64,000 nucleotides of DNA from Methylobacter sp. (GTDB lineage Bacteria > Pseudomonadota > Gammaproteobacteria > Methylococcales > Methylomonadaceae), in the NCBI RefSeq assembly GCF_030680395.1, contig NZ_JAUXVR010000008.1, positions 1 through 64,000 on the forward strand, given 5' to 3'. This document shows positions 24,989 through 33,199 of this stretch, piece after piece. The position numbers were made by a program, and so were the translations under genes. Each line of letters starts with the position of its first letter. Positions within the stretch are counted from its first letter, which is position 1. The notes beneath the pieces are model-generated. The model was given only the letters and a program-made list of their open reading frames with translations, did no database searches and was not told the origin of the DNA.

Positions 24989-27900
24989 TTACGCTTCTTC
25001 ATTCAACCTTGCATACACTTTCTTCATCATCAATTCTTTGACCAAACTACCGAACGACTGATTTTCGAGTATCTTTTCAAATATCTCCTGATTCTGATCC
25101 ATCCGCTCAATCAGCTTGTCAATAAACATCGCTTCAAAGGGGTATTTAAAGGTGTCCAGTTTGTTAACTTTGGCCTGAATCTGAAGGGAGGTATCACCTA
25201 TCAACTCGGCTTCGATCTGCGCAAAGAAAAGCCGGTCCGCTTCCTCAAACTCGGTGCCGAAGCGGTCGTTTAATACGTCTATGATTTCCGATAAAACCGC
25301 TTTCTCTTCCTTGGCGCGTTTGATTCCCGCCTCAGTCAATCCATTCAGCTCACCTTCTTCACCGGTGATTAAATCAATGGAGCCATCTTTGATTTTTTGC
25401 AGGCGGTAATATTCCATCGCCACTTCATCCGTTAACTTCATGCTCTCGGCGAAGTCGCGCTTGGGCAGCTTGGTCAGCAGTAGTTTGGCGTAAGCGTAAA
25501 ACTTTTCAAATTCAGGTTCGCGGAAGGGCATAATTTGGGCAAGGAAGGCATACAGGTTTGTCCATGTACACAGGCTTTTCTTGAATTCTTCTTTTTCATC
25601 GTCTGTTTCTATGGCCTTGTAACGGTCAACCGCAGGATCAATAAAACTGTATAGCTGCGCTTGCGTCCTAGCGGTCATTTGCGTGGTCGGATTGAAATAG
25701 ATTTTAGCCAGCACATCGATTTCCGATCCCAAATAGATCTGCCGTTCATCCAGATTGGCTTTCAAGTCATACAAATGGTTGGGATCAGGTTCTTCGCCAA
25801 CGGTGGTGATTTCGTAATAAGGCTGGAATGAATCGAGAATGGTTTGCCTGTCATTGACAAAATCCAGCACAAAAGTGTCTTCCTTGCCGGGTGCGGTGCG
25901 GTTCAGACGCGAAAGAGTTTGCACAGCCTTAACGCCGGATAACGCCTTATCTACATAGAGGGTGTGCAGTAGAGGTTGGTCAAACCCGGTCTGGTACTTG
26001 TCGGCGACGATCAGAATTTTATAGTCATCCTCAGCAAAAACCTGAGGCAATTGTTTTTCGCCAAAACCGGTCAATTGCGGCTCCGTCACCCCGTCCGGGA
26101 AGTTGTCATCTACGACCTTGCCGGAAAATGCCACCAGAATTTTAATATTCCGTTCATAGCCTTTTTCTTTGATATAGCGATTGAATTCCTCAAAATAGCG
26201 TTTGGCATGCAATCTTGATCCGGTCACCAGCATTGCTTTGGCCCTACCGCCAATCTTGCTAGCCACCACTTGGCGGAAATGCTCAATAATGATTTCAGTC
26301 TTTTGTGCCAGATTATGCGGATGCAAAGAGACAAAGCGCCCAATTGCTTGTGCCGCTTTTTTCTTATTGATTTTCGGGTCGTCTTCAATGGCTTTGGACA
26401 GTTTGAAGTAAAGCTGATAAGTGGTGTAGTTCTGCAACACATCCAGAATAAAACCTTCCTCAATTGCTTGGCGCATCGAATAAAGGTGAAACGGCTGCGG
26501 TTTGCCCTCAGCATCTTGATAGCCGAATACCGCCAAGGTTTTATATTTCGGCGTAGCCGTAAAAGCGAAGAAAGATAAGTTGGATTGCCGGCCACGAGCT
26601 GCGGCAGAACGTTCCACATATTGGTTCACCAGCTCCTGCGCATCAACCACTTCACCGTCATCATTGTCGTATTCGGGGTAAGGCTCATTGACTTCCGGAG
26701 ACGCATCGTCGCTGTTTCCCGGCATATCCCCACTGGCCAGCACCGCCTTCATCTTTTTGCTAGCTTCACCGCCTTGCGAGCTATGGGCTTCATCAATAAT
26801 CACCGCATATTTGCGGTTAGGCAGCTCACCCACTTTGTCGATCACAAAGGCAAATTTCTGCAAGGTGGTAATAATGATATGGGCGCCGCCGCCGATGGCA
26901 TTCGCCAATTGCTGCGAATCTTTATCAATGCGCTGAACCACGCCTGATTTATGTTCAAACTGATAAATGGTGTTTTGCAATTGCGAGTCCAGCACCCGCC
27001 GGTCTGTTACCACAATCACACTATCAAAGATGCGCTGATCTTGTGCATCGTGCAGACCGGACAAACGATAAGCGAGCCAGGCAATGGAGTTGCTTTTGCC
27101 TGACCCTGCCGAATGTTGCACCAGATAGTTATGCCCGGCACCGTGGTTTTGCGCATCGGCAGTAATCTTGCGCACGACATCCAACTGATGAAAACGAGGG
27201 AAAATCAACTTTTCTTTCTTGTGGGTGCGGCCTTCAAAGTCGAATTCTTCCACTTGCAGATGAAGAAAGCGCCCGATGATTTCCAGCCAGCTGTCTTTTA
27301 CCAGCGTTTCCCGCCACAGGTAATCGCTGCGATAGCCTGCGGGGTTTGGCGAATTGCCAGCGCCAAAGTTATAGCCTTTGTTGAAGGGCAGCCAATAAGT
27401 CTTGCCGCCGTCGATGCGGGTGGTCATGTAGACCTCTTCATCATCCACGGCAAAATGCACCAAGGCGCGTTTTTTAAATGCAAACAACAGCTCTTTGTTG
27501 TCGCGGGTGGCGGCATACTGCTTTTTGGCATGAGCCGTGTTTTGTCCGGTAAAGCGGTTTTTCAGCTCCAGCGTCGCCACCGGCAAGCCGTTCAGCGACA
27601 AAACTAAATCCACTGAATTGGTGTTCTTCTTACTGTAATAAACTTGGCGAATCACCTTGAGCCGGTTTTGCCCATACAACGCAAGGGTATCCGGGTTCAA
27701 GCCCGATTCCGGCTTAAAAAATGCCATCTTAAAGCGCACGCCGTAATCCACAATGCCGTTGCGAATCACGTCCAGTGCACCACGTAAGTCCATCTCTTTA
27801 TATAATCGTTGGATAAGTCGATTTTCTACATCGTCACCATGAATGGCGGCAAGTTTGTCCCATTGCTTGGACTGGCTGTCGCGTAAAAAATGCAAGACTT

Positions 27901-28021
27901 CGGCTTTGAACATGCCTAGTTCAGGGCTATAGTCGCTGGCATTGCCTTCGGTATAGCCGCCTGTTTGTAGCAAGGATTCAATAATCGCCGTCTCGAAGGT
28001 GTTTTCTGATGTGATGTTCAC
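24989..28021 (-). CDS. hsdR: Type I restriction enzyme, HsdR (R subunit)
   Basis: 1010 residues, full-length. The nuclease domain shows D138 (VDLVLSLNG) and LELKN with E152 and K154, the PD-(D/E)xK core. The translocase follows: Walker A in QHSAGSGKSNSIAWLA (about 302-310), DEAH (410-413), then FFAFTATPK and the helicase C-terminal blocks (DKYQTGFDQPLLHTLYVDK, QTLSRLNRT). The C-terminal ~200 residues are the helical domain that docks on HsdM. It is the last gene of the operon and overlaps rhuM by 4 bases. Confidence 0.95.
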   Translation of the reverse strand: MNITSENTFETAIIESLLQTGGYTEGNASDYSPELGMFKAEVLHFLRDSQSKQWDKLAAIHGDDVENRLIQRLYKEMDLRGALDVIRNGIVDYGVRFKMAFFKPESGLNPDTLALYGQNRLKVIRQVYYSKKNTNSVDLVLSLNGLPVATLELKNRFTGQNTAHAKKQYAATRDNKELLFAFKKRALVHFAVDDEEVYMTTRIDGGKTYWLPFNKGYNFGAGNSPNPAGYRSDYLWRETLVKDSWLEIIGRFLHLQVEEFDFEGRTHKKEKLIFPRFHQLDVVRKITADAQNHGAGHNYLVQHSAGSGKSNSIAWLAYRLSGLHDAQDQRIFDSVIVVTDRRVLDSQLQNTIYQFEHKSGVVQRIDKDSQQLANAIGGGAHIIITTLQKFAFVIDKVGELPNRKYAVIIDEAHSSQGGEASKKMKAVLASGDMPGNSDDASPEVNEPYPEYDNDDGEVVDAQELVNQYVERSAAARGRQSNLSFFAFTATPKYKTLAVFGYQDAEGKPQPFHLYSMRQAIEEGFILDVLQNYTTYQLYFKLSKAIEDDPKINKKKAAQAIGRFVSLHPHNLAQKTEIIIEHFRQVVASKIGGRAKAMLVTGSRLHAKRYFEEFNRYIKEKGYERNIKILVAFSGKVVDDNFPDGVTEPQLTGFGEKQLPQVFAEDDYKILIVADKYQTGFDQPLLHTLYVDKALSGVKAVQTLSRLNRTAPGKEDTFVLDFVNDRQTILDSFQPYYEITTVGEEPDPNHLYDLKANLDERQIYLGSEIDVLAKIYFNPTTQMTARTQAQLYSFIDPAVDRYKAIETDDEKEEFKKSLCTWTNLYAFLAQIMPFREPEFEKFYAYAKLLLTKLPKRDFAESMKLTDEVAMEYYRLQKIKDGSIDLITGEEGELNGLTEAGIKRAKEEKAVLSEIIDVLNDRFGTEFEEADRLFFAQIEAELIGDTSLQIQAKVNKLDTFKYPFEAMFIDKLIERMDQNQEIFEKILENQSFGSLVKELMMKKVYARLNEEA

Positions 28022-29055
28022 TTTGAATCCTTACTGTCCGTATGTTTGCTTTTTGGTAGCTGCTTTATGATCTTTTCAAAAGCGCCATCCTGCTGGTCTG
28101 AATGCTGTATCCGCAATTGATGAAACTTGTCATATTCCTGTTCGGCGATCTGTTTGGCAAGTTGCTGAGAGACTTTTCCTGCATGGGTTAAGATTTCGCG
28201 ATCATTCAGCCCTAAAAAACCATCCAACTTTTTGATCCAATCCTGCATAGTCATTGGGATACGACGCATTGCCTGGCCTTCGGCAAACACAAGATATTGT
28301 TCTACCAGATTATTCAGTGCCGACAGTTCGTTTTCGTCCAGATAGTTTTTGGCAATCACCACATCTTGCTTGCGAACTTTTTCGCCGCGAAAATTGGTTA
28401 GCCCCATATTTAGTGACTCGGCATTGGCTCGCGCTTTAATAATTTCGGCTGCCGTCTGTCCGGTAATCGCCCAATGCAACTTGTTTTGTACCGCTTTAAA
28501 GAAAGTAATACTGGCATCCAGAGTGGGGTCATAATCCACGCTGGTCGCGTAAATATCGGTGATCTTTTGGTAAAAACGCTTTTCAGCGGTACGAATATCC
28601 TGAATGCGTTTAAGCAGCTCATCAAAATAATCAAACGGCTGATCCGGGTTCTTTAGACGTTCATCATCCAGCACAAAGCCTTTGATGATGTATTCCTGCA
28701 AGCGTTGCGTCGCCCATATACGAAATTTGGTTGCGACATGGCTTTTTACTCGATAGCCCACAGAAATAATCATATCCAGATTGTAATAATCAAGAGGCCG
28801 ATTCACCTGTCGTTTGCCTTCTTGGCGAACTGTCAAATAATTTTTGACAGTTGCTTCCGGTGCTAACTCTTCTTCTTCGTAAATACGATTAATGTGGTGG
28901 CTAATATTCTGTTTACTGGTCTGAAAAAGATCAGCCATTAATTGTTGCGTAAGCCAAACCGTTTCGTCTTCCAGCCGTACCTCAATTTTGGTTTGGCCGC
29001 CTTCGGTTTGATAAATGATGAATTGGGAGGCGTTGTGTGGAGTTGGATTACTCAT
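28018..29055 (-). CDS. RhuM family protein
   Basis: 345 residues of the RhuM (virulence RhuM) family, named after a Salmonella pathogenicity-island gene; its biochemical function is unknown. The N-terminal part ADLFQTSKQNISHHINRIYEEEEL reads like a winged-helix/KilA-N-type DNA-binding region. The family block PLDYYNLDMIISVGYRVKSHVATKFRIWATQRL is clear. The C-terminal half contains ANAESLNMGLTNFRG and KQDVVIAKNYLDENEL. Homologues are often found inside type I restriction loci, as here. It overlaps both neighbours by four bases, so it is made together with HsdR and the Ntn-hydrolase-like protein. Confidence 0.85.
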   Translation of the reverse strand: MSNPTPHNASQFIIYQTEGGQTKIEVRLEDETVWLTQQLMADLFQTSKQNISHHINRIYEEEELAPEATVKNYLTVRQEGKRQVNRPLDYYNLDMIISVGYRVKSHVATKFRIWATQRLQEYIIKGFVLDDERLKNPDQPFDYFDELLKRIQDIRTAEKRFYQKITDIYATSVDYDPTLDASITFFKAVQNKLHWAITGQTAAEIIKARANAESLNMGLTNFRGEKVRKQDVVIAKNYLDENELSALNNLVEQYLVFAEGQAMRRIPMTMQDWIKKLDGFLGLNDREILTHAGKVSQQLAKQIAEQEYDKFHQLRIQHSDQQDGAFEKIIKQLPKSKHTDSKDSK

Positions 29056-30035
29056 TCAGCTTGCTCCTCCTCGGTATTTTGTTGTTGACGCTCCATAAAC
29101 TGGCTGTAAGCAATTTGATCGATAATCGCTTTGAGCAGAGATCTGTCCCGTTTACTAAGCCCTGTCTTCAGCTGCCCTTCCGGGTAGCACTTGAGCAAAA
29201 AATCCGTATGATCCCCGTACACATCTTTGTCGATAGGTGAGAGCATTTCAGGTAGGGTATCTTCCAATATCTCGCCGGTGTCCGGGTCAACGAATTTCAC
29301 TGCCGGATTATTCTCCGTGCTGACATCCTTGCCCAAAAAAGTTTTCTTGCCACTGACAGAGGGCCAATACACGCCTAAAAATTCGGTTGCACCGGGCGGA
29401 TGAATTTTTGCGAGTTGCACCGCGCCATCAATACCGGAATAGGAGGTATCAGGAATCATCTCGATCAATACCTTAAACGGTTCCATATCAAAGCGACGGG
29501 ATAACGTTTTGCCGGATTTGCTAATCTGATCGACTAGCAGTTCCTGGGATTTCTCCAGCTCATCGCCAATAAAGCAATAAAGCATATCATCGCCATTAGT
29601 TTCGTCATGAACGAAAGCACCGGCTTCGTGGTTGTATTCGAGCTTCCAGAGTTTGAATTGATTGGTTTTCCACGACCAGCCGCCAAATAGAAACTGAAAA
29701 TCGCCCAGCACATTCCTGAATTCTTGTGTGCCGTAATCGGTGATTGAGTGGCAAAGCGAAGTAAATAGCCGCGTTAAATAATCCAGAACCTCAGTAATAT
29801 CCGTGTGCGAGTTAGACAAGTGTTCGTCAAACTTAATGGAGGTGATCAAATTTAAAATCAGCGGATAAGTACGATTGGTTTCACCGGCAAAACATATTAG
29901 GCAATCTTTCCTCGGCAGTTCAAATAACTTAACGCCGGAATGCCAACGCTCGCCACCGGACAGGCAGCTGTCGGTTGCAAAGATTAGCTCTTGCTCTTTA
30001 TTGATTTCGCGTAGCCAGGCAACACATAAAGTCAT
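29052..30035 (-). CDS. Proteasome/HslV-like Ntn-hydrolase protein in type I R-M operon
   Basis: 327 residues. The start MTLCVAW would leave an N-terminal Thr2 after removal of Met, as in HslV (MTTIVSV). D22 in FATDSCLSGG and K36 in SGVKLFELP sit where HslV has Asp17 and Lys33. The next block, CLICFAGETNRTYPLI, matches GFAGGTADAFTLF of HslV. Later segments keep the order of the fold: a second-sheet strand (FLFGGWSWKTNQFKLWKLEY), DDMLYCFIGDELEKSQELL (compare IAIGSGGPYAQAAA), and SGIDGAVQLAKIH. A C-terminal extension of ~90 residues (acidic, then basic) is not part of that fold. Identification is by eye; the alignment to HslV is from memory of the family. It is translationally coupled to hsdS and rhuM. 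The function in the operon is unknown. Confidence 0.7.
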   Translation of the reverse strand: MTLCVAWLREINKEQELIFATDSCLSGGERWHSGVKLFELPRKDCLICFAGETNRTYPLILNLITSIKFDEHLSNSHTDITEVLDYLTRLFTSLCHSITDYGTQEFRNVLGDFQFLFGGWSWKTNQFKLWKLEYNHEAGAFVHDETNGDDMLYCFIGDELEKSQELLVDQISKSGKTLSRRFDMEPFKVLIEMIPDTSYSGIDGAVQLAKIHPPGATEFLGVYWPSVSGKKTFLGKDVSTENNPAVKFVDPDTGEILEDTLPEMLSPIDKDVYGDHTDFLLKCYPEGQLKTGLSKRDRSLLKAIIDQIAYSQFMERQQQNTEEEQAE

Positions 30036-31291
30036 AAAGCCATCTCCTTGTCTAACAGATGCGATACCTTGATTTTGCCGGTGACCACTTCGGAAATCAG
30101 CGCGGTGCGATACTCTTTTTGCAGCTCGATAATGTGTTGGGTTTTGGCGATTTTAGCATCGACGCGGGCAATTTCGGTTTCTATGAGCTGTACAATAGAT
30201 TGCTGGTCGCAAATTGACGGTAAAGGTAAGGGGGTATTTCTTAGAGTGTGGAGAGAAAGATTCTTGATCGTTGTTCCACTGAAGGAGTCTTCAAAATAAT
30301 TTAAGACATATTGAGTTTGCAACGCGTAGTACAAAAAAAGATTGTAAATTTTTTCTTTTATTTCTATGTAAGCAGCGCTTTTGCCAAAAATAACCTTCTC
30401 TCCGTTGTAAATTGCCAAATTCCCTATAGTTCCATTCAACGAGATAAGAATAGAGCCAACGTTTAGATCAATTTTGTATTTCTCATATTCCCCAATTGGA
30501 ACTGATAGAGTATTCTCTGTAATAGAGATTTTTCGACCAGATAGATTCATCCCATTAATAAAAAATATTCCTGTTCCACTTATATAATTTGGCGTGGTAT
30601 GGATACCATCACCAATTTTATAAGTCTCATACTTCAACTTCTTAATCTCCCAACCCTCAGGTATTTCGCCAAGCCAGTTGATACCGGTATCTTTGAATGT
30701 GACGTTGGGGGCAACACCTTGGGTCACGGCTTGATTGATTATGGCGGTTTTTTCTTCTTGATACAGCTCGATTAATCTTTGTTTTTGGGCAATCAGGGCG
30801 TCTATTTCCGCCGTCTTGCGGTCAAGGTAGTTGGCGATGGCGGCTTGTTCATCTTGGGGAGGTAAAAAAATATACTGCTCTTTAATCATTGAAGATGTAA
30901 TCAATGGTTGAGCATTTTTGTTTGCTAATTTATTCAGATCTAAGGCGGTCATAAAAAACTCAATATACTTGCTATTGCCAGAAGCATACGCGAGCAGAGC
31001 GTTATCACTAATCCACTTTTTTCCTGAAATAAATCTAATATTTCCGCATTTCGCACCAACTCTACCAATTACAAAAACATCATCATCATTGTTAAATTCT
31101 GTCGTATAGCCAACTAAACCATTTCCGCCATAAACTGGATAATCGCCAAAATCTTTTATCTCTTCTGATTTAATGCCTTCACCGTTGCTTATCGACAAAA
31201 TATACTTCAGCTTCTTAACCGCCCACTCCTTAGGAATCTCTCCAATCCACTCAACCCCACTGCCTTTATATGATTCGTAGCGTTCCATCAA
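30032..31291 (-). CDS. hsdS: Type I restriction-modification specificity subunit HsdS
   Basis: 419 residues, two target-recognition domains in tandem. Each opens with a similar phrase (GVEWIGEIPKEWAVKKLKYI at about 12, GINWLGEIPEGWEIKKLKYE at about 205). Each ends with a conserved helix (DEQAAIANYLDRKTAEIDALIAQKQRLIELYQEEKTAII and CDQQSIVQLIETEIARVDAKIAKTQHIIELQKEYRTALI), the spacer coiled coils that set the gap in the bipartite target. The target sequence cannot be read from this. The recognition domains are richer in A+T and in Lys, Ile and Asn than the flanks, as is common for exchangeable HsdS domains. The second codon is also ATG. Confidence 0.93.
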   Translation of the reverse strand: MMERYESYKGSGVEWIGEIPKEWAVKKLKYILSISNGEGIKSEEIKDFGDYPVYGGNGLVGYTTEFNNDDDVFVIGRVGAKCGNIRFISGKKWISDNALLAYASGNSKYIEFFMTALDLNKLANKNAQPLITSSMIKEQYIFLPPQDEQAAIANYLDRKTAEIDALIAQKQRLIELYQEEKTAIINQAVTQGVAPNVTFKDTGINWLGEIPEGWEIKKLKYETYKIGDGIHTTPNYISGTGIFFINGMNLSGRKISITENTLSVPIGEYEKYKIDLNVGSILISLNGTIGNLAIYNGEKVIFGKSAAYIEIKEKIYNLFLYYALQTQYVLNYFEDSFSGTTIKNLSLHTLRNTPLPLPSICDQQSIVQLIETEIARVDAKIAKTQHIIELQKEYRTALISEVVTGKIKVSHLLDKEMAL

Positions 31292-33099
31292 TCCAGCACC
31301 TTCTTTTCCAACTCCAAACTACTCGCTTCCAGCGCCAGAATGTCGGCTTTGATCTCGGCCAGTGAACGCAGGGGTTTGAACTCGTAAAAGTATTTGGTGA
31401 AGTTGATCTCGAAGCCGGTTTTGGTTTTGCTTTCGTCAACCCAGGCCTCGGGCAGGTGGGGTTTCACCTCTCGCTCAAAATATTCCTCAATGCTTTGCGG
31501 GATCAGCTTGCCATCATGGGCTTTCTGTAAAAATGGGATGTTTTCATAATCGCGCAGGCTGCTATCGGCTTTAGGCTTGCCATCGCGGCCCTTGATGATG
31601 TTGCCGTTGTCATCTTTGTCCGGCTGCTCTACGGTGACGCGCCAGTAGCCGAAAAATTCGTTGGGCAGGATTTTGACGAATTCGCTTTCTTCAAAATCGC
31701 CGTAGAGTTTGGTGATAAAGCCGATGCCTTTGCTTTCGCCGTTTTCGGGGATTTGCTTGCGCTTGTTGCCCAGGGAGCGCGGCATCTTTTCCCAGAAACG
31801 GTTGTAGTCACGCTTGCCGGTTTTCATCAGCTCTTCATCTTTGTTGCCGGTGGCATTGATCAGCTGGATTTTGCCTTTGCGCTCGGCGCTTTTGTGGTTG
31901 TTGAGTATCCAGATGTAGGTGGAAATGCCGGTATTGTAAAACAGCTGGTCGGGCAGGGCGATAATGGCTTCCAGCCAGTCGTTTTCGATGATCCATTGGC
32001 GGATGTTGCTTTCGCCGTTGCCTGCTTGTCCGGTAAACAGCGGCGAGCCGTTGAAGACAATACCGATGCGGCTGCCGCCGTTTTCGCGCGGCTTCATTTT
32101 GGCGATCATGTGCTGCAAAAACAGTAAAGAGCCGTCATTGATGCGCGGCAAGCCAGCGCCGAAGCGTCCGGCGTAGCCTAAGTTGGCGTGTTCGTCTGTG
32201 ATGATTTTCTGGGCTTTTTTCCAGTCCACTCCAAAGGGCGGATTGGAGAGCATGTAATCGAACTTTTCATCCCGAAGCCCGTCCACGGTAAAGGTGTTGC
32301 CGAATTTGATGTTGGCGGGGTTCTGCCCCTTGATCAGCATGTCGGATTTACAAATAGCGTAGGATTCGGGGTTGATCTCCTGTCCGAACACTTCCAGCTT
32401 GGCATTGGGGTTAAAGTCTGTCAGGTGGTGTTCACCGACAGAGAGCATGCCGCCGGTGCCGCAGGCCGGGTCGTACAGGGTTTTGACAATACCGGCTTGA
32501 GTCAGTGACTGATGGTCGGCATTGAACAATACATTGACCATCAGCTTGATTACTTCTCTGGGCGTGAAGTGCTCCCCGGCTGTCTCGTTGGATTGCTCGG
32601 CAAAACGCCGGATCAGGTCTTCAAACACATAGCCCATGTGCATGGTGTCCATGTCAGCCAGATCAATTTCGGCAAATTTTTTCACCACTTGAAACAGGAT
32701 GTCCGCCTTAGGATCGTCCATGCGTTCGATCTGATCGTCGAAATTAAAATACTCGATAATCTCACGGGCAGAAGCCGAATAGCCGTTGATGTGGTTACGC
32801 AGGTTGGCGGCAATGTGGCTGGGGTCGGCCAGCAGCTTGGCAAAATCGAACGGGCTGCGATTGTGAAAATTTGCCCCGGCTATTTTGTTTAAGGTGAGAT
32901 CTTTGGCGCTATCGGAGAGTTTTTCAACTTTAGGCAGGGTATCCAGTACCTTTTGTTTGTTCGGTGCTAATACGCAATCCAGTCGGCGCAAGACCGTCAT
33001 CGGCAAAATCACCTTGCCGTAATCGGACTGTCTGTAATCGCCACGTAACAGGTTCGCCACTTCCCATATTAGGTTGGCTTTATCTTTGAAATTGGTCAT
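31288..33099 (-). CDS. hsdM: Type I N6-adenine methyltransferase HsdM
   Basis: 603 residues from ATG 33099 (MTNFKDKANLIWEVANLLRGDYRQSDYGKVILP), which is where family members start and which has GAGAG close upstream. An in-frame ATG at 33132 adds 11 residues, lacks a ribosome-binding site and lies inside an attC-like palindrome. The helical N-terminal domain is followed by the SAM motif DPACGTGG (210-217) and the catalytic NPPF (286-289). The C-terminal region pairs with HsdS. It is the first gene of the operon. Its 3' end overlaps hsdS by four bases. Confidence 0.93.
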   Translation of the reverse strand: MTNFKDKANLIWEVANLLRGDYRQSDYGKVILPMTVLRRLDCVLAPNKQKVLDTLPKVEKLSDSAKDLTLNKIAGANFHNRSPFDFAKLLADPSHIAANLRNHINGYSASAREIIEYFNFDDQIERMDDPKADILFQVVKKFAEIDLADMDTMHMGYVFEDLIRRFAEQSNETAGEHFTPREVIKLMVNVLFNADHQSLTQAGIVKTLYDPACGTGGMLSVGEHHLTDFNPNAKLEVFGQEINPESYAICKSDMLIKGQNPANIKFGNTFTVDGLRDEKFDYMLSNPPFGVDWKKAQKIITDEHANLGYAGRFGAGLPRINDGSLLFLQHMIAKMKPRENGGSRIGIVFNGSPLFTGQAGNGESNIRQWIIENDWLEAIIALPDQLFYNTGISTYIWILNNHKSAERKGKIQLINATGNKDEELMKTGKRDYNRFWEKMPRSLGNKRKQIPENGESKGIGFITKLYGDFEESEFVKILPNEFFGYWRVTVEQPDKDDNGNIIKGRDGKPKADSSLRDYENIPFLQKAHDGKLIPQSIEEYFEREVKPHLPEAWVDESKTKTGFEINFTKYFYEFKPLRSLAEIKADILALEASSLELEKKVLD

Positions 33100-33128
33100 T
33101 TGCTCTCGTGATGGATGATGTTGTTTAC

Positions 33129-33199
33129 ACATAACGTAGAGCTGATCTGCGAGCTACGAAGCGCCGATGTAGCGAGTCGAATTGAGCGGCATGTTATGT
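33129..33199 (-). repeat. attC-like imperfect palindrome at the 5' edge of hsdM
   Basis: The outer boxes ACATAAC (33129-33135) and GTTATGT (33193-33199) pair perfectly. They are followed inward by 5 unpaired bases on each side, a second short pairing (GCT.. with AGC..) offset by an extra base, and an inner GCTAC/GTAGC hairpin. This layout of two box pairs with an unpaired spacer is that of integron attC sites. The boxes deviate from RYYYAAC/GTTRRRY at one position. No integrase gene is in view. Confidence 0.35.

Follow-up and report, generated by a model that had tools for sequence, protein, structure and literature searches.

The stretch of 64,000 nucleotides (nt) analysed here (positions 1 to 64,000 of contig NZ_JAUXVR010000008.1 of Methylobacter sp., referred to below as the window) carries a type I restriction-modification (RM) operon, in which the gene following hsdS encodes a predicted N-terminal nucleophile (Ntn) hydrolase of proteasome-like fold. 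This gene, designated here the Ntn gene, is a widespread R-linked gene whose product is predicted to adopt the proteasome fold, and its link with type I operons is, as far as our searches show, undescribed. The encoded protein is most likely a specific threonine protease that is coupled to the restriction complex and encoded as an R-linked accessory gene. The fuller form of this reading, in which the N-terminal-Thr hydrolase is the dedicated R-linked accessory of one type I lineage and its protease activity is gated by the complex, is offered tentatively, with a confidence that stays on the low side.

The distribution of the gene was established by a context-blind scan of genome contigs (one genome per species, 84,980 species), using patterns taken from an alignment of two sequences. 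A scan of this kind finds close kin, and the monophyly of the RM-linked sequences is partly a matter of its construction. It yielded 45 loci, each with at least one hsd match on the strand of the Ntn gene or its remnant (the window Hsd proteins were used as queries), and 39 of them contained hsdM, hsdS and hsdR. The full set was missing from L042, L073, L082, L084 and L085, whose contigs are short or cut, and from L083, where hsdR is present as a fragment alone. Wherever both hsdS and hsdR were matched (42 of 42 loci), the Ntn gene or its remnant (as in L086) was located between them. The gene was full-length in 40 loci and truncated or reduced to a remnant in five (L082-L086), the latter being excluded from the alignments. 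Four loci with full-length genes (L058, L064, L072 and L074) were excluded from alignments A3/A4 and retained in the 41-row counts given below.

The 40 full loci are assigned to Bacteroidota, Cyanobacteriota, Acidobacteriota, Thermodesulfobacteriota, Pseudomonadota, Nitrospirota, Myxococcota and Fidelibacterota; many of the loci are contigs of metagenome-assembled genomes (MAGs), and their phylum labels may be wrong. In 37 of the 40 the Ntn gene starts no more than 20 nt from the end of the upstream gene (with a 4-nt overlap in 13), while the downstream gene can start between -30 and +50 nt from the Ntn end in 38 (with a 4-nt overlap in 21). The next gene is hsdR in 32 of the 40 full loci, and in the window a rhuM-family gene intervenes. 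A preliminary description of the window had expected a non-random tie to type I genes, which is borne out by the presence of hsd genes in all 45 loci and in several phyla; the refuting pattern named there, homologues without the catalytic triad that are placed at random with respect to restriction genes, was not encountered. The same counts rule out that the restriction link is a quirk of one genome.

The AlphaFold2 model of the Ntn protein, obtained with a 41-sequence alignment, had a predicted local distance difference test score (pLDDT) of 88.9 and a predicted template modelling score (pTM) of 0.79. Foldseek comparison of this model with the PDB gave 963 matches at E<=0.001, and the best 50 of the 963 were all proteasome entries. 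The top match was 1ryp_K of the 20S proteasome (E 3.7e-9), whose template modelling (TM) score was 0.68 if normalized to the length of the target and 0.44 if normalized to that of the query. In hhalign, the Ntn family matched an HslV alignment with a probability of 82.5 (E 9.8e-6), as against 0.2 for a RhuM control. A seven-row profile (A1), applied to 398 Pseudomonadota genomes, retrieved five strong members and 11 weak matches (E<=0.001); 10 of the 11 weak matches were recognized by eye as HslV, and in seven of the weak-match loci a frame reading as HslU was present downstream of hslV. Because of these results and the invariant triad described below, the product is identified as an Ntn hydrolase, whose family is predicted to share the Ntn sandwich fold of proteasome beta type. 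Chance resemblance to the proteasome is ruled out by the A1 profile, the AlphaFold2 and Foldseek results, and hhalign with its RhuM control. The proteasome-like fold named in the preliminary description was recovered in the model and in its best-scoring matches, with no other fold among the best 50 of the structural comparison. Searched alone, the window protein gave no family match at E<=1 in any of Pfam, PADLOC and NCBIfam, nor did any PDB sequence match it at E<=10.

All 50 sequences compared, which comprise 41 RM-linked rows (the window and 40 loci) and nine solitary relatives, have Thr2, Asp22 and Lys36. The triad is also kept in all 32 loci without the search pattern that contains Thr, and in all three without the one that contains Asp. 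Its conservation is therefore beyond chance, being found in RM-linked and solitary rows alike, including loci that lack the search patterns. In the hhalign columns D22 corresponds to D17 and K36 to K33 of HslV, in agreement with the HslV-like triad claimed earlier. The "GFAGGT-like" block of the same description stands only in part: it is related to the GFAG of HslV, but the actual letters are CFAGET, with Cys48 in the column of the first glycine. We take the oxyanion glycine of HslV to be Gly45, the first glycine of GFAG, and the block is considered related yet divergent because Cys48 sits in this column. An invariant glycine, Gly51, follows three residues past the Cys48 column. G204 and Q207 are likewise shared by every one of the 50 sequences, and K210 by 49 of them; we know of no proteasome catalytic residue of this kind at that place. 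In the numbering of PMC8665760, the oxyanion-hole glycine is Gly47. The ratio of nonsynonymous to synonymous substitution rates (dN/dS) was 0.02-0.11 in six of seven homologue pairs, the synonymous rate being saturated in the remaining pair (window-L042). The Ntn gene is shown by this computation to be under purifying selection, which also rules out a misread or non-coding open reading frame (ORF).

The operon of the window consists of the following features.

31288..33132, minus strand: hsdM (Pfam N6_Mtase, HsdM_N)
30032..31291, minus strand: hsdS (Pfam Methylase_S), with a 4-nt overlap with the Ntn gene
29052..30035, minus strand: Ntn gene, proteasome-like Ntn hydrolase of 327 amino acids (aa), predicted nucleophile Thr2 (Thr1 once Met is removed), with Asp22 and Lys36
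29055..29249, minus strand: C-terminal tail of the Ntn protein, residues 263-327, predicted helices 270-283 and 295-326 (AlphaFold2 model, alignment)
28018..29055, minus strand: rhuM-family gene, the second accessory gene in the slot (Virulence_RhuM; PADLOC PDC-S05)
24989..28021, minus strand: hsdR (HSDR_N, SWI2_SNF2, T1R_D3-like; NCBIfam TIGR00348 below its curated cut-off)

According to these coordinates, the order is hsdM-hsdS-Ntn-rhuM-hsdR with a 4-nt overlap at every junction. The Ntn ORF begins with ATG and encodes a Met-Thr N-terminus; its position between hsdS and rhuM in a type I operon, as first described, agrees with the ORF coordinates and with the Pfam matches of its neighbours. 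A second member of the genus, Candidatus Methylobacter oryzae (L053), carries the same operon, where identity to the window is 93% for HsdM, 90% for HsdR, 94% for RhuM, 46% for HsdS and 42% for the Ntn protein. The Candidatus Methylobacter oryzae operon carries two rhuM-family genes (L053 7798-8808 and 11002-12039), whose products are 47% and 94% identical to the window RhuM. The idea that rhuM is a regular partner did not hold: it adjoins the Ntn gene directly only in the window and in one of the 45 loci, L053, which excludes a general RhuM link. In L051 and L061 rhuM is located elsewhere in the stretch, not adjoining the Ntn gene.

Solitary relatives were detected by tblastn in eight plasmid-collection records, and the Pseudomonadota profile search added four more solitary genomic copies. 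None of these 12 loci had a match to the window Hsd proteins (the only queries used) in the fetched stretch; a contig end cuts the L029 locus, and the copies in L006, L008 and L010 are broken. In the six plasmid records with annotation at the Ntn locus (two of the eight have none there), the neighbours include integrases, dynamin-like GTPases, and SEC-C and CHAT proteins. In the Ntn tree, all 41 RM-linked sequences fall together to one side of a branch with 100/100 support, which is again partly due to the construction of the search. In the columns aligned to window residues 263-315, the RM-linked sequences have a median of 53 of 53 residues (minimum 51) and the nine solitary ones a median of 13 (maximum 28). 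Thus the C-terminal tail, predicted as two helices in the AlphaFold2 model, is largely absent from the solitary homologues. The C-terminus of L074 looks unlike that of the other members. In the Pseudomonadota sample only five of 398 genomes gave a match at E<=1e-76, namely the window and the four solitary copies; the gene was found in two of 395 Bacteroidota genomes and in one of 292 cyanobacteria, each count including its seed. One solitary homologue, in E. coli M7424 (L178 10001-10576), is encoded by a 191-aa ORF that is shorter than the others, is annotated as "hypothetical" and lies near a tyrosine recombinase; this DNA is present at an identity of at least 99% in 126 of 5,426 E. coli genomes.

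In this type I lineage, the cargo of the slot before hsdR is interchangeable. Loci lacking the Ntn gene carry there Fic (L094, L098), Fic and RloB with an AAA ATPase (L128), a PIN-like/DUF433 pair (L129), DUF6602 (L131), or proteins with no Pfam match (L126, L130). Extra cargo is also found in Ntn-containing operons: ThsA-like SIR2 and SLFN_AlbA_2 proteins in the hsdS-hsdR slot, and GmrSD-type proteins and PtuA/PtuB (Septu) between hsdM and hsdS. Examples are L052 6509-8582 (PtuA/PtuB, Septu), L054 11008-12894 (ThsA-like SIR2) and L049 5783-7552 (GmrSD-type); the family-library scan covered 22 of the 158 unlabelled operon ORFs. A protein family of about 108 aa is encoded directly between hsdS and the Ntn gene in six of 40 full loci (L047 9665-10000, L051 9674-9997, L056 9671-9997, L067 9670-9999, L070 9671-9997 and L075 5095-5421), and none was matched in the fetched Ntn-lacking loci. 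Two scanned members had no Pfam match, and the model of the ORF (pLDDT 89.7) found no fold match at E<=0.001; this protein is possibly a small partner of the Ntn protein.

A complete hsdM-hsdS-Ntn-hsdR set is present in a contig of the viral collection IMG/VR (L165 4477-12010), which may be a mobile element or a misclassified contig. Among 50,697 phage records tblastn found no Ntn match at E<=0.01, and a phage origin of the gene was rejected; this single IMG/VR contig has the whole set. In L083 (9373-10582), broken Ntn frames precede the hsdR fragment, and neither hsdM nor hsdS was matched upstream of them; two small ORFs of this locus read, presumably, like a nucleotidyltransferase/HEPN-type pair.

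The Ntn gene is exchanged among these operons. For the 36 loci with all four proteins, the Mantel correlation was 0.95 between HsdM and HsdR, 0.50 between Ntn and HsdM, 0.55 between Ntn and HsdR, and 0.24 between Ntn and HsdS, values that were reached by at most one of 2000 permutations. In five pairs of loci (L051/L075, L047/L060, L071/L078, L053/window and L050/L054) the HsdR proteins are 91-97% alike, the Ntn proteins only 40-47% and the HsdS proteins 32-70%. The members of each pair are sisters on the HsdR tree and belong to different deep branches on the Ntn tree. In the Methylobacter pair, high DNA identity ends at the end of hsdM and returns late in the Ntn gene, with shorter patches between. 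Near-identical HsdR proteins with distant Ntn proteins therefore indicate that Ntn types displace each other at a constant place in the operon, in many cases along with hsdS. This exchange would be explained equally well by hitch-hiking with hsdS and by diversifying selection. Strict co-inheritance of Ntn and HsdS is not supported, given their Mantel correlation and by the pair L057/L058, where HsdS is 41% and Ntn 98% identical. This pair comes from a Cyclobacterium isolate (L057) and a Neomarinimicrobiota MAG (L058), with HsdR also 97% identical, and its likeness reflects either recent transfer or MAG contamination.

The computed support for a restriction-coupled threonine protease consists of the predicted fold, the triad, the homology to HslV, purifying selection and the position between hsdS and hsdR. 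An N-terminal Met is usually removed before Thr, and removal of Met1 would make Thr2 the nucleophile. The protein would dock on the restriction complex through its tail and cut its target once the complex engages foreign DNA or is blocked by a phage anti-restriction protein; HsdR, RhuM or phage proteins, the candidates named in the preliminary description, are conceivable targets. Specific cuts would be expected, and not processive degradation, since no HslU gene lies beside the Ntn gene and the gene occurs in cyanobacteria, which are unmarked for HslV in Table 1 of PMC8665760. The former point was established by tblastn with seven HslU fragments, which found no HslU gene beside the Ntn gene in the window, the 45 loci or L165 and did find the positive control; the two weak AAA+ matches in L076 both lie outside the operon. 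Such a protease would form a second line of defence in the style of PrrC, proteolysis replacing tRNA cleavage, and the toxin- and nuclease-like company in the slot favours an effector role. That the type I complex is a DNA sensor which switches on the protease, i.e. that the protease is gated by restriction, is nevertheless doubtful.

Several results weigh against so close a partnership. Of the nine close HsdR loci (59-74% identical to the window HsdR) among 395 Bacteroidota, seven lack the Ntn gene, and one of the two that have it is in the seed genome; the slot is cut by a contig end in L094 and L098, for which absence was also seen in the whole-genome search. In the upstream regions of 32 further HsdR genes (43-53% identity, some cut by contig ends) no Ntn gene was found, in agreement with the whole-genome search. 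In cyanobacteria, HsdR of more than 57% identity occurred in one of 263 genomes, the seed, and the others among the matches listed were 45-52% identical. On the HsdR tree (52 rows, 13 of them called Ntn-lacking, including L085 and L086 with a truncated or remnant copy), presence of the gene changes seven times, four of these changes being forced by well-supported branches. Because of these absences and changes, the restriction system evidently works without the Ntn protein, which rejects the notion of an obligatory RM subunit; the earlier view of the protein as a type I component must be relaxed accordingly, the gene not being fixed in the lineage. The correlations of Ntn, moderate with HsdM and HsdR and weak with HsdS, fall short of what a tightly docked partner should show, and the tail as a docking element is suggested by its distribution only. 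The column of the first GFAG glycine of HslV is Cys in 38 and Ser in three of the 41 RM-linked members, as judged by alignment. Finally, the profile checks proposed earlier did point to HslV and Proteasome, but weakly: the top match of the PDB profile search was HslV (4hnz) at an E of only 0.11, and the Pfam Proteasome model matched three of 46 members (best E 0.0044), the window protein not among them.

These data are also compatible with a built-in form of restriction alleviation, in which the Ntn protein would clip or inactivate HsdR when the cell's own DNA is under-methylated (for example, on entry of the operon into a new cell or after DNA damage), as an in-operon counterpart of ClpXP. 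We regard this as possible at best, and an RM-gated effector and control of HsdR fit the data about equally. The position of the gene before hsdR favours control of HsdR, given that hsdR follows directly in 32 of 40 full loci and that the Ntn gene overlaps the next gene by 4 nt in 21 of 40. ClpXP is an established precedent for controlling HsdR by proteolysis (PMC12707154), and HsdR is conserved over the 36 loci (mean identity 0.67), so that divergent Ntn proteins could share it as a target. Counted against alleviation is the absence of the gene from most sampled sister loci (only two of the nine close Bacteroidota HsdR loci carry it), as well as the five pairs in which HsdR is nearly identical and the Ntn proteins are far apart, and the lack of an HslU gene beside the Ntn gene (other unfoldases were not searched for).

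The Ntn gene might instead be a passenger that uses the operon as a landing and expression slot, its product being an anti-phage or other enzyme that acts independently and is not physically linked to the complex. The many unrelated cargoes of the slot are in line with this, as are the truncated or remnant copies beside full-length hsdR in L085 and L086; moreover, the protection given by the embedded TgvAB does not need HsdR cleavage activity, though it is weaker when the remainder of the cluster is missing (PMC11411939). However, the RM-linked clade lies beside hsd genes of one type I lineage in all 45 loci, and its tail sets it apart from the solitary relatives. We therefore consider a pure passenger unlikely, since the clade has been found with one type I lineage only. 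A role other than that of a protease, such as an amidohydrolase, a protein ligase or a catalytically weak sensor of the same fold, seems more improbable still. In its favour are the Cys or Ser in the column of the first GFAG glycine and the invariance of G204 and Q207 and near-invariance of K210, and connectase, a proteasome homologue, is a ligase (PMC8665760); the invariance of Thr, Asp and Lys in all 50 sequences argues against it. Overall, we prefer to read the product as a specific threonine protease that is coupled to the complex.

In the titles and opening abstracts of the best-listed papers (subscription journals being mostly outside this scope), we found no description of a type I operon that encodes a proteasome-like protein, and a term search of the main text of a 2026 defence-prediction paper (PMC13092281) gave neither "proteasome" nor "Ntn". 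The arrangement suggests that the cleavage of foreign DNA is linked to that of proteins. For a proteasome-like clade, the sharp and repeated operon context names likely partners, and its function is therefore testable with a clonable operon. Should the complex prove to be the partner or the target of the Ntn protein, the latter would be either a protease effector that restriction switches on or an in-operon form of the ClpXP control of HsdR; a restriction-gated protease, if true, would be a further bacterial coupling of nucleic-acid recognition to proteolysis. A search for other undescribed defence genes might well begin with the accessory genes of this slot.

The Ntn protein resembles the proteasome-like family (HslV, BPH, Anbu, connectase and 22 further groups) in its predicted Ntn fold, N-terminal Thr, Asp and Lys, and its homology to HslV. 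It differs from the HslV rows used in its length (327 aa as against about 174), its two-helix tail and the Cys or Ser in the first-GFAG-glycine column. For the 22 new proteasome-like groups, Fuchs, Alva and Lupas (2021, PMC8665760) report no genomic context that points to a specific function, whereas the Ntn clade, which may belong to one of these groups, is tied to type I RM operons. With regard to location, a gene between hsdS and hsdR is a known phenomenon, exemplified by RloF (PMC4619093), and TgvAB is embedded in a type I cluster (PMC11411939). The Ntn gene is like these and other R-linked ORFs (rlo) in lying between hsdS and hsdR in the same direction of transcription; RloF and TgvAB, however, are GmrSD-like proteins, and here the product is a predicted proteasome-fold hydrolase. 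PrrC is embedded in the type IC ecoprrI locus and becomes active upon inhibition of the restriction enzyme by a phage peptide (PMC12707154). As in EcoprrI, an accessory gene is embedded in a type I operon, but PrrC is an anticodon nuclease and the Ntn protein has a predicted proteasome fold. Restriction alleviation by ClpXP, which controls HsdR of types IA and IB by proteolysis (PMC12707154), shares with the Ntn gene the possible use of proteolysis as a control on restriction; ClpXP is a housekeeping AAA+ protease encoded elsewhere, whereas the Ntn protein is encoded within the operon, with no HslU gene beside it.

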